Origin: Steinernema hermaphroditum
Lineage: Eukaryota > Nematoda > Chromadorea > Rhabditida > Steinernematidae
Reading direction: 5' to 3'
Assembly (NCBI GenBank): GCA_030435675.1
Contig: CM059624.1
Location: forward strand, 14,346,769 to 14,410,768
Length of the DNA stretch: 64,000 bases
Position numbers and translations under genes: made by a program. Numbering within the stretch: the stretch's first letter is position 1; each line of letters starts with the position of its first letter. Shown in pieces: positions 1 through 51,496 of the stretch. Under the pieces are notes generated by a model. The model was given only the letters and a program-made list of their open reading frames with translations. It did no database searches and was not told where the DNA came from.

Positions 1-280
1 TAATTAGCGAACGCTGGGGGACTCAAATTGCGCATCGCCTTCCTGTCAGGAGCCTCCCGCGCGTTCATTAGGCGCCGTGTTCCCTTCAGCCGTCATTCAA
101 TTAGAGACGCACGCCGAGCGCTTCGGACGACGGTTATCCCACTCCGCGTGTGTTTGTTTTTGTCGGAAAACCCGACCCTATCTTTGGAAAGGGAGATGAG
201 GAGCGAAGGGCGGAATTCAATCATGGATTTTGCGAGGGAACCAGTTTTAGATTTTGAAAAATTTTTGTCGTCCTCCTTCA
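1..280. other. GC-rich island at left edge, no gene recognised
   Basis: Noticeably more GC- and CpG-rich than the following AT-rich DNA, with TAATTAGC and CAATTAG homeodomain-type cores. An 85-codon open frame exists, but I see no family or splice context. It could be a conserved regulatory segment or part of an element cut by the window. Confidence 0.3.
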
Positions 281-479
281 CTTAACGACCATAACGAACC
301 AGTTATTGCATTTGTCATTGAATTTGCTCTGGAACAACACGGTTGAGTATCCGCATATTGTCCAAATTGGGTGCACGACACTCTGCAAGGTTCTTGTACG
401 ACGCAAACTTTTCAAATAGCATTTATTTTCAAGGTCTTAGAAGTAACTAAAAGATTTTTGTATCAAATATTTGTTCAGT

Positions 480-1490
480 GTGGAATGATCTTTGCCATAA
501 CCTGAATTTGAGTTAAAGACGAAAATGAGGAACTTGGTTCTATCGCAATTCGGACAGCGAAATACAGTGCTCATTACTATGTGATTGTGTTGGAACAGAA
601 GGACGGTCATGAAACGTTCCAGCCTAAATGCACCATCATATACAAAAGGGTTAAGAGAGAGTCGATTTTGGTAATTAGGTTAGATATGCCCGGCGAATTT
701 GACCGTCTTCGGTCTCGGTTGCGGTCTACTGGGGAGCATACATCAGGTGACCCAAAAAAGGTCATTTAGACAGAAGTCAGGAAGGCCATTGAGAAAATCA
801 GACGGCTGAGACCGCTTAGTTTCTTTCGTTTAATTTTGCTTCATCTCTTTTTTGTTTTCGACCGGACTCAACTCAGGATGTCCACCGAAATGTCTTTTTC
901 CAATGATTTAGACAATGTGTGCCAAAAGCTAAAAATTTTTCAATGTTGTCATTGCGTGTCATAAAGTTTTAAGACGACTCTTTTTCATTTGTGTGGTTTA
1001 ATTGTACTTACGTTTTGATCCAAAACTTTAAGCATTATTTTTGCAACCAGTCGATAAAGCTTTAACTTCTACAATTTGTAACTGCAATGTAAGCTGGAGT
1101 CTTTCATTTGTGATCAGTTAAGTTCTCCAATCGTTCTCAATCGGGACATGTGAATCATTGCGTTAAGAAACGAAATCTTGGAAACTAAAACGAGAAACTT
1201 CGTTCTATCGGGATTCGGACTGTGAAAAACAATGTTCAATGTGATTGTGTTGGAACGCGTGAACTGAACACGAAACGTTCTAAATGTATCGTCGGACATA
1301 AAAGGCCTAAGAGACAGGCGTGTTTGGGCATTTAGTTAAATAATATGTAAGATGTTCGATTGCGATATCGGCTTCGGCTGTGGTCTTCTGAATACATCTG
1401 TTTGTGTGAATAATCCCATTTAGTCTAAAAAGCCATTCAGTAATCAGACCGGTGAGACCGGCTGGCTTCCTTCGTTTGTTGCTTCATTCG
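480..1490 (+). repeat. Pair of degenerate direct repeats (~340 bp each, ~670 bp apart)
   Basis: 480-840 and 1150-1490 share, in order, TTCTATCG..ATTCGGAC, ATGTGATTGTGTTGGAAC, GAAACGTTC..TAAATG, and GACCG(G)CT..CTTTCGTTT. Identity is moderate with indels. No coding capacity is recognised. Confidence 0.65.
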
Positions 1491-1687
1491 CTTTTAGACC
1501 GGTGTCATGCCGTCTCTTGGTCGCGGAAATAACTTCCCCGTCTTCTGTCTAGATGCCTTTTTGTTGGGCAGCCCTGTGTAATAGGGTAAGCGGAGAACTG
1601 ACGGATTCGTTGCTGTGTCTCTGCTTTTCGGTGCGCACCAAAAACATAACCACGCAAAATAGGGACTCCTAAGAGGGCTTGACATCG

Positions 1688-1785
1688 AGCGACCGATTAC
1701 GAACGAAACGCGTTCGCAATGAGACATAGATAGTTCAGAGGGAACAGGTTCAGTGCCACTATGTCTCTGGGGACGTCGTCTCAAA
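1688..1785 (+). repeat. Dispersed repeat shared with 35795-35880
   Basis: CGATTACGAACGAAACGCG followed by TTCGCAATGA and a Thr/Ser-free noncoding stretch matches CGGTTACGAATGAAACGCG..TTCGCAATGA at 35799, then CAG(T)TCA and CTATGTCTCTGG / CCATGTTTCTGG. Same orientation. Confidence 0.6.
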
Positions 1786-1860
1786 TAAAAGTTTTCTGTG
1801 AGCACCGATCTTTTCGCCGTTCGTACTACTTCCAAGCCGGTTCCCATGACCGTGAGAAAA

Positions 1861-4400
1861 AAACGAAAAGACTTAAAAGAAGGTTGAATTTCGGGTAGTT
1901 TCTAGATAAGATTCCGGCTTATTCGAAGGCGCTTTTGGCCATTTTTGGCAGCGATTTTACAAGGAGGATACATATGAAAAAATTTTTGCTGTTCCGCGGA
2001 TACTGTCACGCAGGTTCTCGTGACCGTGCCTTTGTGATTCTTAAATCTGCAGTATGATATTTTTGGACAAGAAGAAAGCAATAGCTGACATAACTGATTC
2101 TTGCTCAAATTTATTATATTTTTGGATTTTGGTGAACGTGAAGTCGTATCAAGACAATGACAATACGAGCAACGTAAGAAAATTACAAATTTAATGCAAA
2201 GAGTTATCGGAGTGGCATTCCGTGAGATACATTTTTGACAGAATTTTCAGTATGTTTCCAGGTGCGCATATATATTTTGCCTGTGCTCCGAGTTTTTTCT
2301 ATACTGCTGAATTTTCCATCATTTTTGACACCTTTAAGTCCAGTTCTCTGGCTGGGCTGTTTTCAGTCAATGAAAGCGCTTTAACGTCTACAGCTTGTAA
2401 TTGCAATGAAAGCAATAGTTATCCGTTGTTCCGCTCTGCTGTGATGAACAATGTGTCGCAGAGGTTTTAGGAAAAATGCTGTTTATACCACTCGTTTTTC
2501 AAATCTGGATCATTCGATAAGAGTTAGCTATTAGCTTACATCTCGTAGCTTCGACAAATGTCTCAAGTCGCATAATCGATAATGAACAGATGGAGGAATG
2601 ATCGGTGACAGCGTTAATTGAAGTGTCGTCACTTAGTAGCCGGTGCCTCCGCTACTGTCATAGTGCTATTTTCTATACGGCGGTCGGAAGCATTAGAGCA
2701 CATCGCCTGATCAGGTCGATGATCCATGAGTTGTTGGAACAGTAGTGTGCCGTCTTGCGGGCGAAGCTCGTAGTCGTCGTCGACATACATAAGAACACCT
2801 GGTTTATACTTTCTTGACTCCATTTACGAATGTATCTTTGAGATATGAGAGTTGTAACCCTGGCCAATAAACTGTCCCTAATGTACACATGTGTACATGT
2901 ATACATGTGTGCTAATTTTCAGCTCGACCTGATGCGAACACTTTGATAGGTTCCCCTGCCATTTCGATTAATGGTTCGTGCATATCAATGTTTGGGTTTG
3001 GTTTCGTTAGATATCTGTCCAAATGAGAATTTTTGTTCAGCGGTGGTTCCATTTTTGGTCATCCGAAATGTGACCTAACGATTTGACGCATTTTGTCTTG
3101 GTCAATTTTAACCAGTTTGCAGTGCCAAAGAACTGCTGGCGCACTCAGCGCTGAAAACAGAGAAGAATCAGCAATAACGGTCTGGTATGCCTTCCATGTG
3201 GACACTGTTCCAGCACAGCGATTCTCGACGATTTGACCGAAATTTCGCAAACTTTTTATTAACATACGTATTTTCTAGTAGCGCAAAGCGTTTTTCATTG
3301 CTATCTAAAGGTATTTGACAAGCCGTGCTCCTTTATGATCTGTAGTAATAACTATAACTGTAAATTCCATTTCAAAGAGCTTTTTCAAAGAGTTTGCAAA
3401 TTAATAAATTCTCGGCAAACTTCTAATAAGCTTTGATTTGACCTGTATGACTTATATGATATGATTTTATATAATAAGTGAAATATTTTTGCATTCTTAT
3501 TTTTCTCGCGAAGGACAGCAGCAAACGGTTTATACTTACAGCAATGTCTGTACGCTTTTTAGCAGGAAACTCACTGGAAAATAAAAGTGACATGGGTGTT
3601 TTTGCACTGCGGTCATACCGCCCAAATTTCTGATAATACGTTCTTTATTCTCTTATCTCCCCTCGGCAGCCACTGCATTCCAAATAAGCAAAGTTTGGCC
3701 GTCCGCATACGATAGTGTTTTTCCAGACGTCCATGGCAAATACACTTACTTCGCACATAACTTAAGCCTGATTAAGTTACCCTTTATTGCGTGCACTCCT
3801 CTCCCACAGCTCGCCCTACGTGTCGCGCATCCTTAATACGATCTCTTTCGTTTATTAATAGAATTCGTAAGCTCATATTGCGTGTTTACAGCTCGGAGCG
3901 GTGAAAAACGAATCCACCCGGCCAACAAGACCAAAAATTGCACTTTCGACGAAAGTTTTCGTCACACAAGACCGAAGAACCCGCTGAATAATTGAAACAT
4001 TTCGCCGTTGTGGCACGAAGAAGGATCGCTTTCGCACGGCGCTCTTAATGGATTGCGCTTAGCGATTCCCAGAAGTCTTCGGTGACCGCGTCTGTTTGTT
4101 TTTGTGTTCTTCTTTTGGCTGCCGAGATTTGAGAACTTCCGAGAAGGGCATTCGGTAGTGAGAGTGGTGGTATTTACTCTGGAGGGCACTGATGCGATTA
4201 GGGTGGGCCGCGGAGGGCTGATTCTTGTGAAGGCTTTTTAATCAGTCGAAATTTAAAAAAAACTTATGAAAGAGTAGCCATACGTCATTGTGAGTGGCAT
4301 TGCAGTTTTTGCTGCTCAACTGCGACTCATCAATCGTTACATATTTTCGTGTTTTGCCTTCTCTCTCGTGATGATTGAATCAGAGCCGTAGTCCGCTTAT
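1861..4400. other. Non-coding AT-rich stretch
   Basis: No gene recognised. Holds several ATTTTTG heptamers, an alternating palindromic stretch (ACACATGTGTACATGTATAC at 2885-2904), and a CpG-richer segment at 3780-4210 with inverted GAAAGTTTTCG-type motifs. Confidence 0.5.
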
Positions 4401-6550
4401 GCTCTAAGGTGCACGTACTTTATAGTCAATTTTTGTTTTTTTTTTTCGATACGATAACCCCAGAACGGTATGGTTTACGTTTCATTCTTAATACGCGCTC
4501 TGGAAACCATGGAGATGCCTGAAGGAGACCACATAGACTGTTGTTTTTAGTTAATTTTTGGCAGTTCGGCTGTTGTAACTGCTTATCTCTAATTTGATGC
4601 AAATTTGAAGCAGCGGTTCTATCCATACGTAAAGCATAAAGACGTTTTTGAGAGCTTGATTCATCTTAATGTGACTTTACTCCGTTGTTTTAGGGATTTT
4701 TGTCCAGAAGATGTCTTTCTCACATAGAACACACTCGTTGTTCTATGATATGTGTACAGCATATTCGTTCAAATAATTATATATTTGTATGATTATTCAA
4801 GCTTAGACCTATCCAGACCTTCTTAGCAAAACCATGTTCTTTCTCGAACAGTTATATCTCGTCAGTTTGAGTGGTGTTGCAATTTCTGAAATTTCCTTTT
4901 AAGGTTAATCTATGCGTCTCGTTTTTGGTCAATTTTTTGTGATTTGATGCTGAATGGAATCGGAAAAAGAAATGGAAATGACCGTTGTTTTCCGTTAATT
5001 TTTCCCTACATGTTGGGAAGGTTTTAAGAAGCGCTCTTCTCCATAAAGCATGAAGACGGGAAAGGAAGTCAATTTTCTAGAGACGTCATTGTTTTCGGGA
5101 TTTTTGCCGAACAGCGGTCTCTGTAACATAGAATATAGAACGACCGCAGCCCGCATATCATCTGCTAAACCATGCGTTTTGTTTTCTGTCAATTTTTGTA
5201 CGTGTGCAGTGGATTGCAATGTTGCCTCATCATCATAATCGGATAACCTTGAAAAAGGCTCGTTGCTTTTCAATCTTATCTTGCGTTTTGGAATTCGTGG
5301 GTAAAGGCCGAAAGCGACCACATAAACCGTTATTTTCAGTCAAGTTTTGCTAATTTCGGCGTTGTGATTAGCTAGTTCAAAGTTTATTCATCTTCGAAAT
5401 AACGCTTCTTTTCGTTACCTTACTGTAGACATCGACATTTTTGAGAAAATCTACTGTTTTAGTGTGACGTAATTGTTTGTTTTGGAATTTCTTGATTAGA
5501 TTAAAAAGCGTCTCCAACACATAGAACACCGTAATTTTTCGTTAAACATACTAATCTGTACAGTCTTTCGAAGCCCTACTACTATAAATTGTCACAGTTT
5601 GCAATGCGGGACACTAATACTGTCTAATAATGCTGGTACTGTCTTCTAGATATTGGCTAATTTTTGATTTGTTTTGAATGCTTTCGGTATCACTCCCTGT
5701 AGGACTACCATAAGGCGGTGATTCCTGTATGTATGGTCGTCGGGAAGGCAAAGGGCTGATTCCCGTAAAGGCGTATTGCGACGGCGCGAGTGGGGTCGTA
5801 CGCTGATGACCTTCTTTCCAAAGCGATTTTCTTCGTTTGGTGTTCCAAATTTTTGAAGCATTGTGGCCGAAACACCATTGGTTGCATACTTCCATGTTAC
5901 AGCTTTTATTATGCCTTCTTTTCTTGATTTATCCAGGGCCGCATTCCTACAGTCAGCTGCACAAAGATAAGGCCACCCTGTTTTTCCTGTTCTTATGGTC
6001 TTCGCTTTAATGCTAAACTATACGCTTTGTTTTTGGTCAATTTTTGTGCTCTGGCTGTGCTTTCTAATTTCTTTTTATTCTTAATGCTTCTTTTGGAATC
6101 CGAAATGGAAAAAGCCAAAATCAATCACTTAAATTGTCGTCTTCAGTAAATTTTTGCCTCTATGTCTTAGAGGAAAGTTAGTTACTCTTAATGCGCGTCT
6201 TGGAATCCGAGGGTAAATGCCGAACGCGACCATGTAAACTGTTATTTTCAGTTTATTTTTGCTTGTATCGCGGTTGCGGATGCTTAGCTCTTATTTGATG
6301 TGGTTTGGAAACAGTGCTTCTCTGGATACACTTGGCATATACATAGACTTCAACACTGCTGAAAAAATACAGTGTCTTAACGTGACATTAATCGTTTGTT
6401 TTGGGGGATTTTTGCCCACGAGGCGTGTGCGTCATATAGAACAGCGTCATTTTTCGTCAACCATTCCAATATTTATACTCCTTCTTAAGCCCCACTACAA
6501 GAAAGTGCCACAAAATGGTTAAAAATGCGGTGTTTTGCAATACTGTCTTT
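4400..6550 (+). repeat. Degenerate repeated units carrying the heptamer
   Basis: The phrase CATAAACYGTTATTTTCAGT followed by TNATTTTTGC recurs with changes near 4531, 5321, 6231 and (outlying) 8357. A second phrase, GTTTGTTTTGGGGATTTTTG-like, recurs near 4690, 5470 and 6395. 5560-5690 and 6470-6590 also align, ending in GGCTAATTTTTGATTTGTTT. It is an old tandem or segmental repeat with no coding content. Confidence 0.6.
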
Positions 6551-6732
6551 TAGATTGGCTAATTTTTGATTTGTTTTAAATGCAGTAATACGATATGTAA
6601 CTTTGTTGGTATGCACTTGTTCAAATGATTGTATTTTTGTTTGGTATATACAATCATTTGAACAAGTGCATACCAACAAAGTTGCATATCGTATTACTGC
6701 ATTCAAAACAAATCAAAAATTAGCCAATCTAA
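6550..6732. repeat. Long near-perfect inverted repeat (~83-bp arms, ~13-bp loop)
   Basis: The left arm, from TTAGATTGGCTAATTTTTG, through CAGTAATACGATATG and TTGTTGGTATGCACTTG, to AATGATTGTAT, is matched by its reverse complement ending CAAAAATTAGCCAATCTAA at 6732. Only a few mismatches. It would extrude or be transcribed as one long hairpin. The outer end matches the 5650 repeat, so one arm arose by inversion-duplication of local repeat DNA or by insertion of a foldback element. Confidence 0.9.
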
Positions 6733-6734
6733 GC

Positions 6735-6780
6735 GGCATGCGGCAAAAACCTATATACTATATAGGTTTTGCCGCATGCC
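6735..6780. repeat. Second palindrome (~22-bp arms)
   Basis: GGCATGCGGCAAAAACCTAT-ATA is followed by its complement TATAGGTTTTGCCGCATGCC with a single A bulge and essentially no loop. It lies immediately beside the larger inverted repeat. Confidence 0.9.
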
Positions 6781-7571
6781 TGTATGGATGCTTTTTTAGT
6801 ACTTCTGTTCTATTACCTGGCTGTGTACGCCCAATACGGTGTGGGAGAGTGTCTTCTTACTTTAGTCTGCTCCATGCTATGGTTGGTCGAACAAAATTCG
6901 ATTGAAAATCGGACCAAACACTGACTCAGGTCGTTTCCAACGAATCGAATCTTCGATTTTGTAGGAAATGTCGAGTTATTCGATTTGACAGTCCTACTCG
7001 CGTTGTTGTGTATCTGGCGTAGATGAGTAGATCAGAGTGTTTTCTGCTCACTGACGAAGCAGAGCGGCTCGCGCTCGTTGGAAGCGACAACTGAAGTCCA
7101 GGCCGTTCGGACTTGTTGTTCGATAATTGGATCGTTGTGTTTTTGTGTGAACCACTGTAGATTCGTTGTTGTATTTTGGTGCAGTCCAGAGGGACAATTC
7201 ATAAAGAGTGAAAAGATAAGCACCGTTGTTGTTCGTTGTATCTTGCGCGACCAGTGTCCGCATATCAACTTGTTGTTGGCGTCGTCGTCGTTGTGAAGCC
7301 GTTCGTTGTTGTGTGACGCTTGTGTTTCGTCACGGTGCTTGGAGCAAGATCCGCACCATTTATTACCGTCGTATTACTGAGGATTTTACCGCATGGCAGC
7401 AGTCATTTACGTATCTCCATTGTTTGGAGACGTTTATTCCTGTTTTGGCGAGCATCCTATCACGTAGTGAACATCGGTTGCGTGGAAAGCTACCGTTTTC
7501 CACACATAGCATGGTTTATCATCTTAACTCAGTTTAACTAAATGCTTTCACAAAATAGTTTTAAATTTGAT
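6781..7571. other. Non-coding, GTT/CGTTGTTG-rich
   Basis: Contains repeated CGTTGTTGTT-type runs at 7220-7310. Open frames on both strands arise from this low complexity; no gene recognised. Confidence 0.45.
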
Positions 7572-7583
7572 ATTTGAGGTGGT

Positions 7584-8104
7584 GGTCTTTCATTTGTGCC
7601 CCCAGCGATCGGTCGGGTCGTCCACTCGCTCTCGCTCTCTCTGAGGCTGTCTGAGCCGAATGAGTTGAGTGAGCGGTCGTTCTCGGCCGTCGTTGTTGGC
7701 GCAATGATCGCCCCGGCTCCCAGAAGGCCTGGAACACCAGGGAGCCGTAGTTCCACCGTCTCGCCAAAAAGCCCGTCACGACCGCCCGACTCTACCCGCG
7801 CCGCCAGAGAAGCCGAAGAAGGGTTGCAACTCCGAAGTCCGCGCCGCCAGCCGAACCGAAGATGACTCTCCGCTCCGTTGGCTCTACTCCACCGCTATTC
7901 CACTTCCGGAATCAGCTCTTCACGACTTCGATGCCCGCGCAAACTAATGGGAGCGCTGCATTCTATTCGGATTCGTTTGCTCCACCGAAATCAGAAGAAA
8001 ATCAGCGACCACGGTGTGACTATGTTGTTCTTTGTGCATATATGAGACGTCCTGCACGGCGTAAGCCGTTGATTCGGGAAGATAAATCGTGTAAAATCGT
8101 GTAA
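7584..8104 (+). mobile_element. SINE-like element, copy 1 (521 bp)
   Basis: GC-rich unit starting (GG)TCTTTCATTTGTGCCCC and ending in the tail (AAATCGTGT)n. It is flanked by exact 12-bp duplications ATTTGAGGTGGT at 7572-7583 and 8105-8116. No terminal inverted repeats. It carries two short open frames overlapping at ATGA (7862-7865), ~89 and ~80 codons, Ser/Arg/Pro-rich and not matching a known family. Copies at 24010 and 33544 are about 97% alike by eye. Confidence 0.85.
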
Positions 8105-8116
8105 ATTTGAGGTGGT

Positions 8117-11100
8117 AGTAAATTTTTGGGCTTGAGACTGGCGGTTCACTGACCGAAATCATTAATCGTTGTCGTGGTAGATTTCCATGGTTAGGCTATT
8201 ATTGCGCCTTCTCTCCTTAGCTTAACAACGGCCTCAGTCCGCTTATCCTCTGTGATCTTCTCTTCAACCTATGTTTTCTATCGCTTATTGACTAATAATT
8301 TCGATCGGATAACTCAGGAAGAGTTTCGGCGGCTTTTCATTCTGAATGTCCGCGACCGCATAAACTATTATTTTCAGTTCATTTTTGTGTTGAACATAGC
8401 ATCGTTTATTCTCAGCTCGCATAAAATAAATTTTTTTAGCTAAAACGGTTTTAAATTTGGTATTTGAGGTGTTAGCAAATTTTTATGGTTTTTTTGCCTC
8501 AATGTGCATTTGTGATGTTAGCTAACACGAAATGAGAACAACTTACGCCTGCTGGTAGTCGCTCTTCTTGACTGAAAAGTCAAGAGGTAACTATCTTGCG
8601 ACTGCATGTTACATGATTCAGAATAAACCGAGTAAACTGTTCGTCTTTGCTTCTATAAAACGGAAACCAACGCTGTTAGCCCCACTGTAGTAATGCCTCT
8701 GACTAAAAGCTGTGAGATTCTTTCACCTATGACCTTTGTTGACCAAACAAGAACGGAAATTTTTGTGTATCGTTGTCCTCAATGATTCTTGTTTCCTTGC
8801 TTCCTTGATTCTTGATTTGGTTCTTTGATAACTCGATCCACAAATTGTGAAGAGAGAGTCAAGTATCCTCAATAATAAACTGCAGTGATGTGCTGTCACT
8901 ATTCCATGTTACACATGGTTTAACCACTCTGCTACTTACTCGCTGTTTTCCCTACTCGAAATCTAAAGTGTTTTCGTATTTTGTGTCGAAGCCCGACGTT
9001 CCGCCAATTATCACTTCCTGGACAAACAAGTCCGGCACACTAAGCATTTCTTTTCGGGAACCCTCCAGAGAGTTGCGCGTGTGTTTTGTTCCCTCGGCTC
9101 TTTCAGATCCTTTCCTTTATCGCTATTGTGCACACATAGGAAATGCAATTTCAGCAGTTAGATGGAATAGAATAGGCAATTTCCATTACGTACAGAATAG
9201 ATGTTATTCATTCCTGAAGGGTTAATTGTAGTCATGTAACGGTTATTTTTATAAACAGAACTATGCCACAGTGTAATAAATATTCATTTGAAAACTATCG
9301 AAATCATTTTTGTCGTCTACGGAAGTTCAACTTAATCTTTTAAAAAATGTGGCTGCGTAAAAGTCACCCTAAAGGTCCGAGAACGCCATTACTGGCCAAG
9401 ATGTAACTTTCAAGACTCATCTCTCAAGAAGAAGATGTGAGCTCTGAAGACGATCCTTTATCGCAAGACACAAAACGTCCCGAAAAGGACAGGTCCCGCC
9501 GCCATTCTTGGAAGGTTAATTGCAGTTTTGTAAAGAAGAGTTTGTTTTGTGGCTTCTGAGATCGCATCTGCTTCTGAGAGATGAGAAAGTCAAACTCAAA
9601 GTCAAGTCAAAGATTTTTTTTGTGAGCGATCTCATGGAGTTCGTTGACATTTCGAAACTACTGAACTGATTTTTGGGCCATTGCCGAAGTTCAATCTAAT
9701 CTTTTAATAAAACAACGAACGAATCTAACACCTTAGGTCAATTTTTGGCGCGGTTTCGAGTTGGGTTTCAGTGGATCGTTTTCAAATATCAATTCACAAT
9801 TGTTCTTTGAACTGTTGGACAATTTTTGCGTACTTAGACTAACTTCTTGCGTGAATGGTACTAAAATTGTTAAAGTTCAACTCCGATGATCGATGGTCGA
9901 CTTTTATTTGGCAAACTCGTTGATGCGAAATTTTTGGTGCAACACGATGCAAGATAACATTGCTAGAATACGGCTTCATGTCCAAGGGTGTATCAGTGCG
10001 CAAAGTGCAGGCACATCAATGTGAGGTCAGTTACATATGTGTATGTCGAACTCATCCCGTAAGTTTTGTGTGCTCTTAGCAGATCGTCATTTTGCTGTTT
10101 GAGCGCGTAGATCATGTTAGTCGCTCTTACCGTTTGGAATTATCAAATTGTGGCTCGCCAAGAAGACCTTCCAGCCAAAATCTGCATTCAACTCTGTACT
10201 TTCCTCAGTGTTGCCTATTCACCTCTTTTCACCTTTGCACTTCGCCCACCATCACAAACAACGTTCCGATGATTTATGCCACCCACACAGAAGCTACTCT
10301 GTTTACCCATGGACACCACATGGTTTTTCCCGTTCGCCAGCAGATCCCGCGCCTCATATTGATCGCTTTCATTCTGTTTGATTTGCTCTCCGAAGAGCAG
10401 ATGGATTGCCGCCAGCCGGCGGCCCCCGAATGACGACGGCGTTACGGAGTGACAATTGTTGTCTCTGTGTGATGAGCTGTCCGTTGGGCGGAGATCCCCA
10501 TTCGCGATCGCTTTTTTCGCCTTTGGCGCAGAGCAAATTTCGGTTTTTGGGATATTAATTGGCTTTGCTGCGGCGTTGCGATATCGGGACGGTCAAGCAG
10601 GAAGTGTTATTGTTGTTCAATGGCGGAATTATGCTTCTAAATTTTATTTCAGTCGTACTCGCTTTATAGAAGTAACATTCTAGGGGGATGACCATTTTAA
10701 CGAGCACTTTCTGTTGATCTAATGAATCGAGAAATGTTTATGATTTTGTCCCAAAATGGAGGAGTATAGGGTAATTTGCTTACATGATGCCTGCAAAGTT
10801 TCTATTTTTGGCGCATTGGAGTGGCTTCCATTGGTTTCCATTTTTGATCAGTTGACTATATCATGATAAATGGATGATGGGCACTGAAAAGCATGAATGA
10901 ATATAAAAAGCGGTCACAAATTCGTTTTAACCGACCCCCTTTTGGGATTTCAATTGTCTTCTTTTACGATTTACACCGACCCCTACACCGAGGCAACATT
11001 TGACAATTGAAATGGTTTATATATATCCCTTTCGCTCTGACCGTTCAGAAGGAGCGGTGAGATAGCACAGACGAGCAGAAATGAAGTATACTTTCCTTTT

Positions 11101-14070: not shown

Positions 14071-14075
14071 GCGGA

Positions 14076-14390: not shown

Positions 14391-14559
14391 CATGCAGCAC
14401 CTTCTATCAGAACATTTTTGTGTCTGGAATTATGTACGGGGCCGTAATACATACGCAATTGGGTATTTGGCATTTGTCCGCAATTCGTCTTGTCACGTCT
14501 TTTTTTCTGTGTACATCTGTGCTCTGCAGCCTTAGGGACACATTTTTTTGTGTTGTTCA

Positions 14560-38861: not shown

Positions 38862-41800
38862 ATGAACATCGCCGAGAAATGTCAACTCGTGGCGATTCCG
38901 CTCCCCAACGAGAGTTTCATTTACGATATTCTGTTCGACGTGCACACGTTCTACCGGCCCATCCACACGTATCTGTCGATTATTATGTGCGTGGTGGGAA
39001 CCCTTTGCAACGTTTGCAACATCGTCGTCCTCACCAGGTTGGTTATTTATATTGCCACCCACTGGGAAAGCTTACTTATAAATAACAACGGGAAATGTTT
39101 ACATTTAAAAGAGAAATGGTTGTAAATACCATAATCTGATTTTCCACTATGACTAGCATCAAGTGGGCTGATGTTACACACCAAAAGGCCACTTGTTAAT
39201 CTCTAAAGGTAGCTCTGTGAGGTGAATATTGAGGATCGCATCAGTCAAAAATGTAAAGCTTTTTGAAACGATATCCGTTTTTTCGATCATCCACCGACCG
39301 TGACGAAACCATGACGATTCCGATCACCGATCCAAACCTTTTCCAACACGAAAAAGATGCCCCGGGCTCCCACCACGAAGCTCCTGTATAGTAGCTTCGG
39401 TCGCGCGAGCGAGTTGAATCCGCGCGGCGTTCCCAGTTTCGCTGTTGGGCTTGTTGTTCATTTGTTTGTGACTGATTTTGTACTCACCGGGAATATGAAG
39501 TACGAAGAAATATATGATATTTGATATTTGAGTGTATATTTGCGTGAAAAGTCTTTGGAAAGTGATCGCACGGTTGGCCATGTACTCAGTTTGCAGAAAT
39601 ATGGCAATTAAATTAAAATTGACTACGGATAACTAACACGTCAGGGGTAGATTATTAAAAATCTAACAACGAGTCCCTTATAACTGTACAGAGAGTTGGA
39701 GCCGTAGTTAAAGCAGGTCCAAGTCTTCCGTCAAAAATCTTCCCGAAAGCTCGGTTTAATTTTCGGAAATTAAAGAGCAAAACCCACACACTAAGGGTCT
39801 CACATTACTCAATCTTTGTCCAAGCTCAGTAATACTAAGCCGTCAGAAAACGGCCAGATGTAGCACACCATCTGTTATAAGTAACTAGACAAATGACTAA
39901 GACCGATAAGTGCTCAAAAATAGGCAAAGGATGTAGAGAAAGCAGTGCAAAAAAGTGATTCTCATCGATTTTCAAATTCTGATTCTTGCTACATTACAGC
40001 TTTCGCAAAGCAGCCCGAAGTTTTAAAATCTAAAAAACGACAAAGAATAGTATTTGGTATGCTATAAATGACAAGGACGACGAACATCGCATCCAAAAAT
40101 GAAATAACCTTCAATCCGATTGCACCATAACCTCGAAACCACTCGAGTTTCTCAATGTTGTCGTTATTCAAGCTTGGTGCTGTCGAAAACGCAACAAAAA
40201 TACTAAATTATCTTGGGTTATTCTAAGGGTTACCCTTCGTCACGTCCGCGAAGCTTGGCTCGATAGTCAACTTCCACGAACTAAACGAAGCAGAAATAAC
40301 AAAATTTAACCATCCCTGCAACAGTTAATTTGATTCAGTTTGGCTCACAAAGTGGAATCAGTCAAGTGTTCTAACAGTTCTACCCCAAAGTACAAGCTTC
40401 TACCCCGAACTCAGAGGGTAGTCTTAAAAAGAAAGTAGTTAGCATTGTCGTAGAAAACGTTTTGCATGTGTCTTCTAAGGGTATGTCCAATGCGCTTCTA
40501 AGGGTCCAAGTCGTTTTGAAAAAAAAATTTTAGCTGCTTGTGAGTGGTAAGAAACATTTAAAAATGGCACAATGCAACGTTTCGTCCAAGCTCAGCATTT
40601 AGTCAAAAAATAAATGATACATCCATCTGAGTAACATTCATGAAATATTACAGTCTACAAAAATTACGAGGAAAATGCTGTATCCAAACACATTTCGTTG
40701 ATTCTAATATGACTCTTTAAGCAACCCCTGTTTGTTTTTATAGAAACTGGTAAAATTTGCAGTTTCAGGCTACAAAAAAGAACTATAAAGTTAGCTAAAG
40801 CTAAGCTTACGTGACTCGATTCTAGTGAAGCGCAAGCAGATGCCTAGATGTTTGGTGATCAAACATTAACCCATCGACGCATCTCAGAGTAAAGTCATTC
40901 ACTAAATGAATTCAATGTTCGAAAATTAAAAGCCACTAACCCACGCATAGAATCTTCCCCTGATGTTCAAACATTGCTCATCCTATTCGACAGTGTTTCA
41001 ACAGCAAGTTGGCAAAGCATTGCGCAAAGCAGCGTACTGACACATGCGATATAGAACACAATGGTGTACCACAATAAATAAAGGTGATAATGATGTTTTT
41101 AAACAATAATTTGAAAAGGCTTCGAACTTGTCCCTTGTTCGTAAGTCATATCTTTTCACATCATAAAAGATAACTAATCATTTAGCAATGCTTGAAAGCC
41201 GAGTATGCAAAAATTACCACCACCCACTAAGACTAACAGATCTTCCATTATTTCTGTTTAATGTGTGTGAATAATCATCAACATAGACGCATCTCCAGAG
41301 CCCCATCGCCCTGAATGAGACCGCCCGAAATCGCGCTCAAACCCCCGCCGAGATTTTGCTATTTCGTTTGAGGAGCACTCAGATATCCTTGTATGATTCC
41401 TGTGTAATGCGTCCACAGTTCGCTTCTATTTTTATCGCTAAATCAGTTTTTGTTCAAAAATATTCATACGACTTCCGAGCGCCAAAAAGTCACTTCCTCC
41501 ACCCCCAGAAACCGCAGGGATCGATAAATCGGTCATTAAAATTTGATTGTGGTGCGAAATGTTTTTCTCAAAGTGCACTGGAAAAGATGTTTATCATACT
41601 AAACGCTTTAAAACTACGTAACACGTGCACGCCACTGGTGCTTAACAGCGAGAACATCAGCTGTGACTAAAAGCCAACAACAACACAAATTACTTTGGTT
41701 GAGATGATGTTGGAATGGGGAAGAAGAGATGAATGGTCTAAGAATAAAGATATATTGCTGCCGGAAGACTAGGAACAAAGAAAGAGTTCTCAATTCCGAG

Positions 41801-44800
41801 TTTATGTTAACCGGTATGAAGACAATTGACAAAAATGACCTGACAAAATGTACTAGAAATCACCAAGTGCTGATAAGAATACATCTGATTTTGTTTCTTT
41901 TTGCAAGTAGAAAAACAAAAACATCTGGAATCCAGATGCGCAATTGCAAAAATGGAAGCACAATGATGCCAGCCTAATGCGAAAGTTAAAGGTGAGCTTA
42001 ACCAAAATACAAAAATCGTAAATTCAATGGGACCAAGAGGTGACAATAGAATACCATTATTCAAAATCTATGTAAATCTCAGCCGCCCAGAATGACTGGT
42101 TCCTAACATATCTTTGATGTCTATTTAGAAGGTTCTGCGGGCGCTAAAAAATGAAAATTGTCGTGTTGAAACTCTATTCAAATGCATGATAGACACAAAG
42201 TAGCTTTGGCCCAAGTGGTATGGTGACTTCTGCAGCAAAAATGAGTTCTTACTGTTAAAGTCGTTGATGTCACATGGTGTCCGTAAAAATGACAAGTTGT
42301 ACGACCCAATTTGCCATTTCGATCCTCAAATCCTCTGGAATGCTGTGACCTGTTCCGCTGATCGCAAATTCAAATGCTTAATACAGTTAGTCATTAGATA
42401 CAAAAATGATATAATTAGAGTTGTTACGTTCACCTTATAGAATCAACACCCCAGAATCCACTAAACTCTGCGGCGCGATGACACTTTTCTTAATGAGCAA
42501 TGCATCACATCGTAGCTAAAGGTCTTCTTCTGGTTTTGGTGGGCGGTAGAACACGCTAACCCCGTCAGTTTGCGCAGGTCGGAAAAGCTGATTTCGGTAA
42601 AGGCGCTGACGGGGCGAAGAGTCATCATCTTGGACGCCGATCCTTTAGAACCCTTCGCTTAGTACGGATTATGTAGAAAATGACAAAAATGCAGCCCCTG
42701 ATCATTACTCTAAAAATACGGCCAAAGATGATTTGTAGATAGGAAGCATAAGTCTTTGGTCTCAAAGATTTGCCTCAAGACCCCCAAAAATTCACTTCAA
42801 CAACAACTTGAAGTTCGGGCAAAAATATTTAACACGACAAAGATTTCAATTCCTGGAGGCGCACTATTCCAAATGTTGCCAACCTGCAAGTATATCAATG
42901 ACCTTTCCAGAAGTTGCATTGGAGAGCAAGTACATTACAGAAAACCTGCATTTTCCCCCTTGAAACATCATTTCACTCTCGCATTGAAATGAATAATAAC
43001 ACTGTACAAAAATCAATCGAGTAAAAGCACTCATATTTTCGAGATCCAAGAAAGAGACAAAATTTGCAGCAGAGCCTTTAAGGCATGTTATGCTTTGTCC
43101 TTCACTTCCGTATCGTCCGCAGATCGAACCTTAGCCCTTATCTTGTCTTATTACATATCAAGCACGATGCCCAAAAGTGTTCCGTGAAATCAAAGATAGG
43201 GCTGAGCATTGACAGACTGTGTGCATCTTAGAGGAGTGAGCATCATAAAGACTACTTAGATTGACAGAAATTGTAATGATGGTACCGTTTGGATATCAAG
43301 AACTGTGCATAGATTCAATATTTGCATTAGTAATTCATTGTTCATGGAAAACAGCTATCTCCCGATTAAGATACACTAAAATCTTAACGGCGTTTCAAAA
43401 TCTTCTCATGTAATGGTTTCCAAATGGCAAAAATTGATCAAATAAAGATCCTCTCTAACTGGGTGATACCGGGCGCATCAGTTCTATTTTAATGAATGAC
43501 GAAGGGTCATTGTATACTGTAGACTCAGAAAGGATCCTTCCCAAGTTCGATCAGAAGCGGCCACTTCGGCACTCTATTCTTGTAATCAAATCCAAAATTA
43601 CATCCACATTATGTGCACAAATGGCATATTTGTCAAGTCCAAATTTCATTTGGAAGGTGTCTCAATTGTAGCCACACAATCATCACCCTCAAATTTCTAT
43701 AATATCATATTCCGGTAATTATGTTAGTTGCCCTTTCCGCCTGCACTACTCAAACATTCTTCCGCTGTACTTCACCATGCACTTTCTGTGTACTTAACCC
43801 CGACAATCCTCGGGCAAATCTTTGACCTCGCCAAAATTGCTTCCCCTCAACCGGAACCACCGAGGCTAACCGCATTTTCCGCTAGACCCGGCCTGAGTCA
43901 GCCGAATAATTAGCGACGCTTCCTCCGGGGGAATTCCCAGGAAGCTCGTTACTCATAAAAACAAAACTCTCCAAAGAGATCAGCGAACGCTTAGCGGCTT
44001 CGGCCTTCCCACGCGGAAGTGGGCGCCGAAGCCCAATTTGTCACTTCGGGCCTTCGGGTCCGTTTCTCAATAATTAATCGAATGTCACTCGCACTCCGCG
44101 TGTCGCCTTTTTGCACGCCCCAGCGAGAAGGACTTGTAAATAATATGTGACACCCTCGTTACACTCCGGCGAAGAACCAATTTACTTAATGTATCGTTAA
44201 TTAGATAGACATGTGAAGGGAGGGCAACGGCGCAGAGGACAAATTGGGGATTGTGTCGGATCGAGGGACATACAGCGGTGAGTAAAGGGGCAAATGTCCA
44301 GTATGGGTCAGCTTCTGGTGAGAGATCTGAAACTCGAAAGACCGATTTCATAATCGTGTGTGCCGTTACAAACTGTGGTGGAACTCCTAGAAACAGTAAA
44401 GTAGAGACCGTGTACCTTTAATGTGCCGAAGGGCAAGTTCGAAAGTATGATCAAAAATACACGACCCTGTGCTCTTTTGCTGGATGGATTCGTGCGTCCA
44501 CCTGCAAAAATAATGAGTTGCTTAGCCCGCTCGTAGCGACAAAAATCAGAACTCCCAGTTAACTTTGAAAAATTTCCAATATTGAACTCGGAAATGCCTG
44601 TTTTGAGTACCAAAAATAATAAAAAAAAGACAAAACCAGTTGCACATATCTTTATGAAGATGTATCGAATCAAGGAACATACAACGGTTACTAAAGGGAG
44701 AAAGTGTACTACTAGAAGTTTGAACATCGGAACAAAAATCCAGGAAGTAAAAACCCTGAGAGTCTGAAACTTGAAAATCGACAGACTTGTTGCGAAACCG

Positions 44801-47800
44801 ATTTGATCGTCATGTCCAACGTCTAAAACTAAGTGGGTGTTAAGTAACTCTTAGCGATTTTTTAGGAAATTTCTTCACGATGACGGTGCACATTCTATGA
44901 GCCGGGGCATTGTAAGACAAGCAAAAATACAAGACCTTGTGCTCTTTTTTATGAACAGGCTTAGACTGCTGCTATATCAATGACAAAAATACCGCTTTGT
45001 ATACTCAATATGTAATGCGATCATCAAGACCCGACACAAATGCATAATAAACGAGGAAATGTTTTCACAAAAATACACGACCATGTGCTGTTTTTCTGAA
45101 CGGATTCGTGCGTGCACCAGCAAAAATAACGCCTTGTTTACTAGCCTTATCAACAGTGCGTCAAAACCACAATTGACTTTCAAAAAGGTCCTATATTGAA
45201 CTCAAAAATGCCTCTATTTGATACGAAATTGCGGCGAAAGTATAAAAAATAATGCAAAAACAGGAGACCATATCTTCATGAAGCTGAGAGTGATATCCCG
45301 CAAAAAGTATGGCACAGAATCTCGGATGTGTCGGATCGAGAGACATACAACGGTGACTAAATGGAGAAAGTATACGTTGCAAGTTTGCAGATGAAACCAA
45401 AAATCAAGTAAGTAAGAATCCTGAGAGTCTGAAGCCACACTGTTGTGACACCTATTTTATCACCGTGTTCACTTAAAAAGCCAAGTAGCGACGATCTTTT
45501 ATGAGCCGGGGCTGTACTAGAATGAGCTGAAGTAGAAGACGAGCATAGACAAGACCGAGTGCTCTTTTCATTAATAAATTTTGCATCGCTATTCTTGAAG
45601 ACAAAAATATCGCCTTGTTTACTCAACTATGCGATCATCAATACCAAGACAAAGCTGACTGCATGAAAAAAGATGACATAAATAGAAAACTAAAAAGAAA
45701 ATGATAAATCATCAATCTAAAAGTGACATTGATGAGCCATTACCCGGTATTAAAAATAGAAAACTAGCAATCGTTCACTGGCCAAAAGAAAGTGCGTCAT
45801 CACGAGAACTTGTGCATAAGCATTAGCGATGTGGTTCACGTTTCATGATTTACTTCGAATTATTTGTGGAATCTTCAACATTACATCGAGCCATACCCCA
45901 TATGAATCCATTGCTGCCGGTCCTCTTCTTTTGCTCGTTGTCGCCATCTTTGTGTTCCTAACTTCTTCGTGAAGTCATCTCACCATCGGGTCCTCGGTCT
46001 TCCAATGGGGCATATTCGTCTTACCATTCATGATTTATACTGCATTAAAAGTCAACCGAAGTGTTTAAGTAAGATCATGTGTATGGCGGACTGTCAATCC
46101 CAAAAATTCCATTATAATATGAATTAGTATGTTGCGATGATGTAAATTAACAATGTGCTGGGCAATCATCGTTCTAAGAATCTATGAGTCATTTCTTCGT
46201 TTTCAGAAAGCAAATGCGCACACCTGTGAACATGGTACTCACAGCGATGGCCTGCTGCGATACAGTAGTCCTCTTCTCCAACCTCATCTACACTACCCAC
46301 TACACCTTCGTCGCCTTCGCCGACTGCCATCCGCGGCACTGGAGCTACGGATGGGCGATGTTTCTGATCGCACATGCACATCTCTCCCTTGTGGGGCACT
46401 CCTCGAGTGTTTGGCTGTCGGTCATGCTCGGACTAATCAGATTTTTGACTCTTGAAAATCGCAAGAAGAGCGCCTCCAATCACCGAAATGTAATCCTCCC
46501 ATGAAGTACTTCTTATTTATGACCAAAAATTCAGATTGGTCTCAAGCACAGCTACTGTGCCATAGCCGTCGTGCTGGTTTCTGTGACTATCTTCAACTCG
46601 CCCAACTTCTTAACCTACAGAATCGTCGAAATGAGGCTCAACGAAACGTGTGATGTCACCGATGATAGCCTCAAATTCGCTCCTTCCTATATTCCCGGAG
46701 TGTCAGACCTGGCTCTGGTCGTCAACTGCCTCGTAAGTGCCGCCATAAAGAGCCATATACATAAAAAACCTGGTCTTAGGTCTTCCGATTGGCCTTTTGG
46801 ATTTCCGGCATTGTGTTCAAAATCGTGCCGTCGGTGTGCTTGGCCTTCTTCGCCTATCGACTCTCGAAAGTGCTCAAGGAGGTGAAAAACAATCGCATGA
46901 AGCTGCTGAAGGGATCGCGTGTCGGGAACCACAGCAGCACACCAGCAAGTAATGGAACTTTGCTGGTGAACAATGGAACCGAAGTGTCACATTCCTATCG
47001 GGGATCGAGCAAATCGTTGCACAGCAACTACAGGACTAATTCTGTGAGGTGAGTGATGGCGTATTTGGGAAAGACACTTTTAAATGATACGAGTAACATT
47101 GTATAAGAGGCAAAAATGAGAAACGATGCGATGTATAGAGGTAATACGCAAAACACTCGGAATGTTATTTTGAGGATTTTCAAAAAATGAAAAAAAACAT
47201 GTACAAGACACTTTGCGAACATTCCTAAAAGTTACTACGGAAACATTTGCGAACATGGCAGTCAAAATGAACTTCGAAAGGCATACGATATCGTTGATAG
47301 AGTTCGGATCCCTCATAAAAACATTTTACATATGAAAAAACAAAACAACATGTCATTGATTTATATCACGCGGATCCCATTATGTTCGCATTGACATTGA
47401 TTATATATACATCGACCATGGAGATTCGATTCCACGCACAGCACTAAAACGATACAAACAGTTCCTTATCCGACTGTGACATGTAATCTCACATATCTCA
47501 CATACTATAAAAATTGTACAACTACGGTAGAAGCCAAAAGAGCACAGCAAAACCGAAAGCACTCTCAACATTCGGGCAAAAACAAAGCTGATTTGCTTGA
47601 ATATGACAGCGGTGAGCCAGACAAAAATATGTTATGGCTTGTGGCTTGTTTGGAAAAGATACTTTTGGATGATGTGAAAAACGGGTTTGGTGGACCAAAA
47701 ATGAGAAAAGTATATCGCGATACAATAAGGAAAACGGTCAGACTGGCATGGTTTGCACAAATGAAACGAAAACCATGGAAAAGTACAACACACATTGCGA

Positions 47801-49862
47801 ACATTCTTAAAGGATATCATGGAAGTATTTGCACAACGTAGCTTTCAAAGTCAAATCCGAAAGGCATCCGCCATCGTTGATAGAACTCGGATCTCTCATA
47901 GAAACAGTAGCTTATATCGATATAAAAATTTGCTTCAACATGAGAGGCAAAAATATGTTATTTGGCTTGTTTGTCTGACATGAAATACAGGTTTGCAGAG
48001 CCAAAAATTAGAAAACTATACCGGGATACAATAAGGAAAACACTCAGACTGGAATGATTTCCAAAAATCAAACCAAAACCATGCGTATAGTACAACACAC
48101 ATTGCGAATATTCTTAAAAGATACCATGGAAGCGTTTTCACAACGTATCAGTCAAAATCAAATCCGAAAGGCATCCGCCATCGTTGATAAAACTCGGATC
48201 TCTCATAGAAATAGTAGCTCATATCGGTAAAAAAGCTCATTTAGCAAAACAAGCTCACACGCCAAAAATGCAACAGAAGCCAAAGAAGCAAAAGAAAACC
48301 AAAAGCGCTCTCAATATTCGAGCAAAACGAAGTTGATTTGCTTGAACATGAAAGCGATGAGAGGCAAAAATATGTTCCTGATAGATGATATAATTTGAGG
48401 GTTCGGCTTACCGAAAACTGGAATCTTCGGTTCGCTGATCGTGTGCACTCTGTCGCCGGTATTTTCCAACACAATCTGCTCTGATATAAAAGAAAGCGTT
48501 GAGAAAATCACTACGGCCATCTTAATGACCAAATTGTCATTCTCATCCATTTCCGCTGCACCTGAGTTTATCGTTCATTTACTTAAAAGTGAGACTAGCG
48601 AGGGGCAAAAATTAGGTGGTATTTATGATTATAGATAGTATCTTCCTGATGAATAGCGAAACCGGCAAAAATTTCCGAAAGTTTTTGAAGTTGCACCGTA
48701 GAGTTTGAGTGATAAACTTTCGCATAACAAAAATGCATGAACAAGGCCTATGGATAAGTAGTTTTATGTGTTATCGAAGCTACCTATCTACGCTCGGAAG
48801 CAGTCTTAAAATCAAGATAATCACTACTTTTGTTCTGTGAAAGATATTATTGTTCTCAACTATTTCCGCTACCGCTAAGCACCCTAATTGATCACTTTTG
48901 AACCCTCTATAATTCCTACCCATGCAAAATGACACCGGCAAAAATCTCATTTAATTGATTGTCACCATAACTAAGCCAATGAGCATTGTTATGCCTGAAA
49001 GCATAATCTCATGCCATAATCTTATGCCAAAAATACAATAAATATCTGTAACAGGATTACCTAAAAATTTCTTTGATTTAGTTCCGAGTATCATCCAAAA
49101 ATTTTCTCGTTTTAATAAAACTGAACTCTAACTCTATCTCTAGAATCACCACTTTATACATAATCGATTCAAACCATCAAAAATGTCAAATTTAAGGTCA
49201 TCAGCAAACGTCTACTATGCAAATTTCCATATTTCAGAATACACAACAGAACAAGTGATCGAACGGATCGGACCACCCGCATGCTGATCATGATCGTTGT
49301 GGTCAACGTCGTCACCGAAACACCTCAAGGCATCATGGCCATCTTGAGTGGCATCCTCGCCGACCAGTATCGTCAGTTCGTCTACAATCGTCTTGGCGAC
49401 ATTCTTGACCTCCTTTCCCTCTGTGGAGCTTGTACTACCTTCATCATCTACTGCACCATGAGTGGACAATTCAGAACTGTAGGACCAGTTTGTATATTTC
49501 AGTGTGTTTACACTACATTTTAGGAATTCCGTCGAGTATTCATCCCCTCTTGGTGCTCTTCGTGGCTGGCCAAACGTCTTCGAGCCGCTTCTCACACCAG
49601 CGTGCTCACTAAGATGACCTACTTGACCACGAATCATCCGTCGACCTGCAACGACTTCAACAACGTCTCCGAGCGGTCAATCACCATGACGGTCGTCGGC
49701 TCAAGTACCTCAGTCCGCAAGTTCTATCCTAACGAGGGCATCGGTCAGAGCCAGAGCGAAGACCATCCCTCGGCGGAGGTGGAAAGCCCTAAGAAGGAGT
49801 ACTTCTCCACGCCGGAGTCCACGGACGAGTCGACGGAGCTGCTGGAGGACGTGCAGGTCTAA
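38862..49862 (+). CDS. DMSR-like neuropeptide G-protein-coupled receptor
   Basis: Rhodopsin-like seven-helix receptor of the nematode FMRFamide/myosuppressin-receptor (DMSR) type; it would sit in the plasma membrane and bind an FMRFamide-like peptide. Exons read from splice sites: 38862-39037, 46207-46489, 46535-46732, 46780-47048, 49238-49478, 49524-49862. Phases agree throughout and give 501 residues. Seen: N-glycosylation site NES near the N-terminus; TM1 ending IVVLTR; then RTPVNMVLTAMACCD in TM2; extracellular Cys in DCHPRHWSYGWAM before TM3, pairing with NETC in loop 2; HSSSVWLSVMLGLIRF at the end of TM3, with G-L-I-R-F in place of DRY; TRMLIMIVVVNVVTETPQG in TM6; LCGACTTFIIYC in TM7, without a classical NPxxY. 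The acidic tail ends VQV, a possible class II PDZ ligand (inference). Introns 1 (7.2 kb) and 4 (2.2 kb) are repeat-filled. AATAAA lies near 50040. Receptor family is confident; the exact orthologue and ligand are not. Confidence 0.9.
42565..42635 (-). repeat. Short degenerate match to the SINE-like family (intron 1 of the GPCR)
   Basis: AGTTTGCGCAGGTCGGAAAA, then GCTGATTTCGGTAAAGGCG and GAAGAGTCATCATCTTGG, resemble the antisense middle of the element (AGTTTGCGCGGGCGTCGAAG, GTTGATTCCGGAAGTGG, GAGAGTCATCTTCGG). A weaker echo is at 5715-5815. Confidence 0.45.
43720..44290. other. GC-rich island in GPCR intron 1
   Basis: CpG-rich with TAATTAGCG at the centre and ATTAATCG and TTAATTAG cores, plus palindromic GGCTTCGGCCTTCCCACGCG. 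Composition resembles the islands at 21.5 and 36.3 kb. A regulatory role is a guess. Confidence 0.35.
44240..45650 (+). repeat. Degenerate repeats inside GPCR intron 1
   Basis: GTGTCGGATCGAGGGACATAC (44253) recurs near 44664 and 45326. GTGCTCTTTT..GA.GGATTCGTGCGT.CACC(T/A)GCAAAAATAA recurs near 44467 and 45084, with variants at 44939 and 45557. Heptamers occupy the same place in each unit here. Confidence 0.75.
47080..48230 (+). repeat. Tandem repeats (~308-bp period) in GPCR intron 4
   Basis: ATCCGAAAGGCATCCGCCATC followed by GTTGATA.AACTCGGATCTC recurs 308 bp apart at ~47855 and ~48163, with a diverged third unit at ~47270. CCAAAAAT(G/T)AGAAAA lines up at 47694 and 48002. Confidence 0.85.
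48240..49237 (+). other. Remainder of GPCR intron 4
   Basis: AT-rich, with nine CAAAAAT heptamers often in the form GGCAAAAAT. No coding segment. Confidence 0.5.
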
Positions 49863-51496
49863 CGCCCAACTCTTGCCCACTACGGTATTGCCTCGAACGG
49901 GTCGCCGATAATGTTTTTGCGATTTGGTGCCCTCTGGTACGGGTTAACTTTAGTTTCTTTATGGTGTGTATCGTCATGTTGTTGCCATATTGGTCTGAAG
50001 ATCTGTTGCTTGCGTTCTGTACAAATAAGATGACATTATAAATAAACATTGTTTGCAGCATTCCGTTCGACTTTTCACACATCACATGTACTCTGAAATG
50101 ACCGACAAAAATATAAATAAACTCAAAGCCAGAAAGAATTCTACCTGAGGGTAGACTTTTCAGCAATTCAGTCAGCTTCGATTCAAAACATGCATATACA
50201 GTATAAGACTACACATGGTGTGCTAGGTTTTAAGTGCACAATGAACAAAAACTTCGCGTAACTTTATGTGAACAATTATAACCGTCCAAAAAAAAATATT
50301 ATTACAACAGATGCTCGAAGCATTCTCGCTACTTGGAGTTGCTGACGATGGTGAGCATGTCTTCTGATTCAATCCCTCCAATGCTTTTCGACTATTTATC
50401 AAGCTGACCTTGTGGATCATACATTTATCAAATAAAAGGGAAGGGAGGAATCATACAAACCGATCAAGTACTATTTGTTCGCTGTTAGAAACAGATGAGC
50501 CAGAAAGAAGATTAACCTTTAACTTCCTTTCTCTCAAGGGTACTTTCCAAATGGCAGTTGTCCATAGAAAGGGCCAATTGCGAGGCATCACTACGAATCT
50601 GGGTAGAGTGATTTGAAACTGTTCAAAGAAAATGAGAGACGTCCTCTGAGATCCAAATCAGTCAGTTCTCCTCTGAAGAAGCGATCGAACACACAAGTAA
50701 CCATGTCAAGCTGAATCCGGGAGCAGCCCGATGATGGAGCTCAGCAGGCGAGACGGAAAGACCTTCAAATCTTCAAAGTTTACCTTCAAAGCTGGGCTAT
50801 TATTCGGCTTGAGACAGCCCAAGTAGACGATGGGACCTTCCGCGACGTCATCTCCTTCCTCTTCCATGATGCACGTACTCAATTTACATGGTCTCTAATA
50901 CCCATGAAAATGTTGATATCCCTCTAGATAAGACGGTCTTGAGAACGAATGAAGCCAACTATGCAGAGAAGGGCGGATGTTCTGAAACGACGTTTCAGGG
51001 AATGTTATCAATAAATCATATAAAAACATGGCTGCTTTTAACATGCATACAACAGCAAAAATGGATCACTATTCACCCCTTACTTTCGTCGTTCACAAAC
51101 AGGATTTTGAAATACCGCTGTTTTCTCTTCCACTCACAAAACATCAACATCCGCTCTACGTCACACATTGAGCAATCACCATTTATTCACTACTTCATAC
51201 GTGTTTTCCCAGCAGATTATGCATGCATACTATGACTCACTATTGCTTCAGTCTTTTTATAAATCATTCAGCGACTAGTACAAGTTGATCTAAGGTGGAA
51301 TATGGAATCACGTCCCAAAAACGTTTAGGTTTCGCCCAGCGGTTTCAGCTTACTCTCAAAGGGAATACACATGATGTTTTTTTTCGAATTTAAAAATGTA
51401 CTGTAATATTATTCACGGTGTAAAGTTACCACCATCTTCAAAAATGCAACAAGTAAAGGTGAATTTATTTGGTTGTTACATTGAAAAATGCGCATG
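49863..51496. other. GPCR 3' region and intergenic DNA
   Basis: AATAAA at ~50040 is a likely poly(A) signal. The rest has no recognised gene; the last clustered CAAAAAT motifs are at ~50103, 51054 and 51438. Confidence 0.5.

Follow-up and report, generated by a model that had tools for sequence, protein, structure and literature searches.

Strand-polarised islands of the heptamer ATTTTTG in Steinernema hermaphroditum, a candidate cis-element of small non-coding RNAs

Why should a seven-letter word keep almost entirely to one strand over tens of kilobases of a nematode chromosome and then, after a short gap, to the other? The question is raised by 64,000 nucleotides of the Steinernema hermaphroditum genome (C4:14,346,769-14,410,768, contig CM059624.1), called the window below, in which ATTTTTG occurs 106 times on the plus strand and 68 times on the minus strand; the genome comprises 90.6 Mb, and its first five contigs measure 16.7-18.4 Mb. 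Strand counts are given as +:- and refer to exact ATTTTTG unless otherwise stated. Our tentative answer is that the window lies in an island, which would be a cluster of short, independent, oriented units, and that ATTTTTG is most likely a cis-element of non-coding, probably small, RNAs.

An exact word on one strand

A first-pass annotation, made from the letters alone, had described a plus bias of about 100:4 on the left, its inversion to about 2:60 on the right across a gap of some 1.2 kb, and a near-loss of the heptamer in a compact cluster at 52-64 kb. Recounting bears out all four points, with 103:4 over positions 1-34,500, 2:61 over 35,501-51,500, no copy in either orientation between the two blocks, and 1:3 beyond 52 kb. 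The window is thus divided as follows:

261..34421, plus strand: left block, 103 ATTTTTG on + and 4 on -; first + site at 261, last at 34415
34422..35597, no strand: switch zone, heptamer-free both ways; two diverged copies of a 29-bp direct repeat, at 34534 and at 34840
35598..51445, minus strand: right block, 61 on - (CAAAAAT on +) and 2 on +; first - site at 35598, last at 51439
6550..6732, no strand: near-perfect palindrome (arms 85 bp, loop 13 bp), which explains the reverse copy at 6714

Among all 7-mers ATTTTTG shows the highest strand imbalance (z 12.1), the runner-up being TTTTTGT (7.9), which overlaps it. Markov nulls of order 1-4, each block's own, reached at most 38 copies on the left, where 103 are observed, and at most 23 on the right, where 61 are observed. 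One of the four wrong-way copies of the left block, that at 6714, sits in an arm of the palindrome. A mild T-over-A skew persists without the word (T/A 1.23 left, 1.09 right). Counts outside the window are 20:2 for the adjoining 10 kb on its left and 2:15 for the same length on its right, and the island reaches beyond the window by at least 10 kb on each side.

To judge how exact the word is, 172 kb of C4 outside the islands, both strands, supplied the expectations for 68.2 kb of the window's island read in sense. On this baseline ATTTTTG has 198 sense copies where 12.5 are expected, and 9 antisense copies; the enrichment is confined to the sense strand. The 21 one-letter variants occur in 5-31 copies each, or 0.8-3.5 times expectation, and sum to 320 in sense against 178, a joint enrichment of 1.8-fold compared with 16-fold for ATTTTTG itself. 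Changing the number of T has a similar outcome (ATTTTTTG 7 vs. 4.8 expected; ATTTTG 53 vs. 35.5). Since the variants, ATTTTTTG and ATTTTG are all raised far less than ATTTTTG, the word depends on its two end letters and on having exactly five T. TTTTT as such is found 600 times on the sense strand, ATTTTTG included, against 189.5 expected, and the exact heptamer is therefore a one-strand addition to a more modest excess of T-runs.

Composition alone does not reproduce the pattern. When A, G and five T are arranged in all 42 possible ways, ATTTTTG has 164 copies on the enriched strand and no other ordering exceeds the 43 of TTTTTGA, so that the equal bias of composition-matched words which the annotation had named as a refutation is not seen. 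Of its two comparison words, ATTTTAG is unbiased (9:7), whereas GATTTTT, although not equal to ATTTTTG, is itself skewed (37:9), partly by overlap. The description of seven sharp bases with variable flanks is upheld as well, position-wise flank information being near zero for 60 bp on each side.

Islands, duplications and host genes

Sixteen other 10-kb samples of C4 contain 0-5 ATTTTTG per strand, and 29 unselected small samples (37.5 kb, 12:12 in total) contain at most 3 per strand. Candidate dense places were picked via close pairs of ATTTTTG in a first pattern search, and the selecting pair is included in each count. Two 10-kb stretches chosen in this way are dense, L026 at C4:13.48 Mb (29:9) and L028 at C4:12.19 Mb (25:3), as are three of 14 further pair-chosen places of 1.5-3 kb, minisatellite excluded:

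C4:13.99 Mb, 0:6: dense pair-chosen place
C4:14.09 Mb, 10:0: dense pair-chosen place
C3:12.74 Mb, 8:1: dense pair-chosen place, single 1.5-kb sample

C4:12.34 Mb (0:4) is doubtful as a dense place and the other ten are not dense. Because few of the sampled places are dense and the unselected samples are low, the islands are discrete and uncommon; they are real, with dense places on C4 and on one other chromosome, C3. Many close-pair matches are supplied by the minisatellite, ATTTTTG(T/C)AATGACG, which is distinct from the islands. It is found at L004, L008 and other places on C2-C5 in opposed orientations, and possibly represents transposable-element ends.

Local duplications within the islands allow the fate of the word to be followed. 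Across 18 alignments of such duplications (at least 85 bp, 62-85% identical), ATTTTTG stands in one or both copies at 27 places. At 14 of these the two copies are identical, whereas windows drawn at random from those alignments predict 3.9 and gave at most 12 in 20,000 draws. The alignments partly overlap, and the 27 places are therefore not fully independent. In a looser set of 43 alignments, in which ATTTTTG itself can aid the alignment, 44 of 58 occurrences are kept (both copies counted), against 16% of all windows. Because the word is kept in diverged duplicates above the level of random windows, we read this as purifying selection on ATTTTTG, with turnover of sites. The duplications noted in the window are these:

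4475..6583, plus strand: diverged tandem duplications, 63-72% identical; heptamer co-oriented, retained by only some of the pairs
14570..15811, plus strand: tandem duplications spaced 341-406 bp; heptamer conserved at 0/3 in the aligned pair (14.6-15.4 kb)
34146..34427, plus strand: 68-bp direct repeat, 81% identical, final site pair of the left block; heptamer kept
36771..37847, minus strand: tandem duplications spaced 350-403 bp; conserved heptamer copies
44252..45679, minus strand: tandem duplications; some heptamers conserved, some lost
47057..48376, minus strand: tandem duplications; some heptamers conserved, some lost

A mutational or transcriptional strand bias, one of the explanations first offered, is insufficient alone, because antisense copies are at background (9 vs. 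12.5), the one-letter variants are little raised and the word is kept in diverged duplicates. The statement that the sites are not one repeat family holds island-wide, where no alignable sequence was found beyond ATTTTTG itself, and fails locally, where tandem duplications do align and carry the word. A heptamer-free repeat of about 0.5 kb is inserted in the island; its four copies, about 96-98% alike, lie at 7578-8105, 24007-24536 and 33542-34050 (minus strand) of the window and at 1260-1770 of L017, with related pieces in L018 and L026.

Nearest-neighbour distances were pooled for 276 sites from eight stretches. Distances of 60-100 bp are in excess (45 vs. 26.3 expected) and those below 40 bp are depleted (17 vs. 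30.7), a spacing to be expected if each unit occupies its own footprint; selection through close pairs, which applies to L026, L028, L038, L039 and L043, could only swell the short-distance class. Compared with control T-runs, the sequence is AT-richer before ATTTTTG and GC-richer over the next 20 bp (weak, uncorrected P 0.002-0.02), and no difference was found in composition further downstream. A candidate second word, TCGGATT, was rejected as mostly a simple repeat in L017.

A codon-usage scan of 1-52 kb detected one clear gene, on the plus strand with pieces at 38.8-49.9 kb, and the right block mostly comprises its introns and surroundings:

38829..49859, plus strand: Srw-type seven-transmembrane receptor gene with long introns, from the codon scan; Pfam Srw for 46178-46501 and 49164-49520
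38829-39080, 46178-46501, 46523-46760, 46780-47049, 49164-49500 and 49524-49859, plus strand: likely coding pieces of the receptor gene, approximate limits, 1757 bp in total

Two of the 61 right-block copies fall inside these pieces, both at piece edges (46524, 49178), as does one of the two wrong-way copies of the block (46441). No coding exon was detected in the left block, whose best stretch scored 17.8 against 28-44 for the receptor pieces; shuffled sequence, with a larger training set, scored up to 20.3. Further to the right, at 52420-52709, 48 perfect copies of AGGGAT lie in an open frame that translates to an RD repeat and runs on into a weak match to CAP (cysteine-rich secretory).

CAAAAAT had been placed on the sense strand of introns of a G-protein-coupled receptor gene, and ATTTTTG is indeed antisense in the Srw gene. 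In L028 it is sense, between the exons of a P450 gene. In these two genes, then, the host does not set the direction of the word, and the proposal of a mark of host transcription direction fails. In L026 both orientations are raised over the 0-5 per strand of non-island samples and are interleaved, so that the units look independent and not like parts of one long transcript.

Candidate readers of the word

How might such units operate? Under the reading proposed at the outset, each ATTTTTG would be recognised singly and would fix the direction of its unit, and units would be accommodated in intergenic DNA and introns regardless of host-gene strand. Local tandem duplication would create new units, leaving neighbours co-oriented, and selection would retain ATTTTTG as the remaining unit sequence drifts. 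Transcription, an RNA product and a recognising factor are what we infer here, and duplication may account for the co-orientation. Such a system would be comparable in operation to the Ruby-motif PIWI-interacting RNA (piRNA) clusters that other nematodes have, though built on a different word. The narrower proposal, that ATTTTTG belongs to a new clustered small-RNA class of a nematode lineage without PIWI, as an independent counterpart of Ruby with another word and factor, is possible though somewhat doubtful.

Several observations weigh against these proposals. The enriched strand also has roughly twice the expected number of other T-runs. No single base at a fixed offset behaves as a start site within 200 bp of 246 sites (248 minus two near-duplicates), where only weak, scattered 2-4-mers appeared; this contrasts with the set distance of about 42 nt at Ruby loci described in the available text of PMC6436959. 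The Ruby word is not enriched in the 68.2 kb of island (CTGTTTC 9 sense and 3 antisense vs. 7.3 expected), nor is its core (GTTTC 105 sense and 70 antisense vs. 94), and Ruby/SNAPc promoters were rejected as candidates on this ground. The detected duplications span a small share of the islands and one keeps no heptamer, and the cause of co-orientation is therefore only partly evidenced. Finally, the sequence check for PIWI is limited to five of the 91 Piwi-domain matches in the genome.

For those five, searched against solved structures, the best-scoring chains were of the AGO clade in every case; three more were only translated and read. The AGO-like matches agree, without proving absence here, with the lack of the PIWI/piRNA pathway in nematodes outside clade V, plectids excepted, that excerpts of PMC9203780 and PMC6436959 report. 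Two equal-scoring Piwi-domain matches with 388-aa frames lie about 11 kb apart in opposite orientation at C1:12994868-13007546, and the one that was tested is AGO-like.

If no RNA is made, the islands could instead hold oriented sites for a DNA-binding protein that organises chromatin or chromosomes, in a pairing-centre-like or heterochromatin-nucleating manner. In nematode pairing centres, zinc-finger proteins bind clustered short motifs, and an exact word, homotypic clusters of tens of kilobases, few close neighbours and conservation would all suit such a protein. There is, however, no obvious reason for it to require one strand in 198 of 207 island copies, and neighbouring sites have no helical phase of 10-10.5 bp, a 9-bp period being borderline (P 0.04). 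We consider this explanation rather unlikely; if no RNA arises, a selected, strand-polarised DNA word extending over tens of kilobases would in our judgement itself be unusual in an animal genome and would need a reader.

Somewhat less likely still is that long non-coding RNA is made from the islands and that an RNA-binding complex such as Sm rings attaches to its AUUUUUG words, which are identical to the Sm-site core. Strand specificity suits a signal at the RNA level, and 11 of the 15 SmY and U2 genes read in this genome (13 SmY matches, two U2) contain ATTTTTG. The same word is an example Sm site of spliced leader (SL) RNA genes in the accessible part of PMC7986045, and AUUUUUG is a U2-type Sm site in that of PMC12359035. 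In the genuine Sm sites, however, A precedes in 11 of 11 and G follows in 10 of 11, whereas the 273 island sites lack the Sm nonamer context (AATTTTTGG 25/273 vs. 22.9 expected) and show no AAUUUUUGG preference of the kind seen in the genome's own SmY and U2 genes. Sm searches permit four to six T, as the excerpt of PMC7986045 has it, while ATTTTG and ATTTTTTG are hardly raised in the island, and in the re-refined U4 structure the bound sequence is AAUUUUU with one base per protein (PMC4756616, in excerpt). Neither single-strandedness nor a following hairpin distinguished 251 sites from 254 control T-rich sites (P 0.11-0.75), and the interleaved orientations of L026 do not fit long transcripts. 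An Rfam search of the window brought nothing but a tRNA to the gathering threshold, and no Sm-class family. Sm-site RNAs as the identity of the island are weakened by the nonamer and hairpin tests. Because the island copies have neither the nonamer context nor extra single-strandedness or hairpins, the match to the Sm core may be a coincidence.

The SmY RNA family is not known outside nematodes. Its 13 matches in this genome, 12 of them above the cut-off, include nine within 32 kb at C1:14069620-14101572, on both strands, two with a six-T Sm site; upstream of seven of these nine stands TCTCTGTTTC, which resembles the small nuclear RNA (snRNA)/Ruby element. U2 snRNA has 19 matches in a tandem array on C7 (8605-187264), about every 9.9 kb. 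A genome search for SL1 RNA found none among the 50 of 14,422 candidates that were scored.

Descent from an ancient tandem repeat with ATTTTTG in its unit, leaving functionless relics oriented by the array, would account for the many diverged duplications of the same orientation and for the summed excess of one-letter variants, the expected decay products. It is improbable, in that the seven bases alone persist between unalignable flanks and the word is retained in duplicates far above the local level. Most improbable of all is a sponge-like RNA with 7-mer sites for a small RNA of seed CAAAAAU: by reasoning only, seed pairing would lead one to expect a sharp 7-mer with free flanks and strand specificity, but A after the site is not preferred (59/273), the dense places are divided between two chromosomes and occur within the introns of genes unrelated to each other, and we know of no small RNA with this seed, for which no search was made.

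Comparison with known systems

A literature search on the word, on Steinernema small RNAs and on nematode motifs with Sm or piRNA links returned no title on oriented ATTTTTG islands among the matches listed. The islands fall outside the Ruby and Sm families by the features compared. With the Sm sites of U snRNAs, SL and SmY RNAs they share the identical core heptamer, present in this genome's SmY and U2 genes, and they differ by the absent AAUUUUUGG preference and hairpins, the strict five T and the lack of an snRNA-type promoter word. In the meiotic pairing centres of C. elegans, too, a single short motif is densely clustered on chromosome arms; these motifs are longer and are not known to be strand-polarised.

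Ruby type I clusters of Caenorhabditis and the motif piRNAs of Pristionchus resemble the islands: a single short oriented word marks many non-homologous short loci, which lie clustered or within introns, sense or antisense to the host gene, and have AT-rich surroundings. The piRNA clusters of C. elegans are not known to have as strong a strand polarity over tens of kilobases as the ATTTTTG island. In contrast to Ruby, the word here is ATTTTTG and not CTGTTTCA/GTTTC, the sites lack a start signal at fixed distance (YRNT, 5' U), and no PIWI-type Argonaute is among the matches checked. The sense position in the P450 introns and the antisense position in the Srw introns can be likened to P. pacificus, whose piRNA loci are about equally sense and antisense to host genes according to the excerpt of PMC6436959.

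Strongyloides ratti, of clade IV and thus of the same clade on the Steinernema assignment, has piRNA-like 21-22U RNAs whose loci form same-strand clusters on a single chromosome and are preceded by AT-rich sequence, and the available text of PMC9203780 reports neither a piRNA motif nor PIWI genes for it. Its clusters differ from the islands in spanning 1 and 2.7 Mb, on the X. These S. ratti RNAs have been proposed to stand in for piRNAs and, within the same excerpt, have no motif found (PMC9203780); ATTTTTG is therefore of interest, as a selected, oriented word that defines islands and offers a direct handle on a link to small RNAs. A logo anchored to the 5' ends of RNAs may overlook a word whose distance from them varies, and it may thus be conjectured that the 21-22U clusters of S. 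ratti and the ATTTTTG islands of S. hermaphroditum are related.

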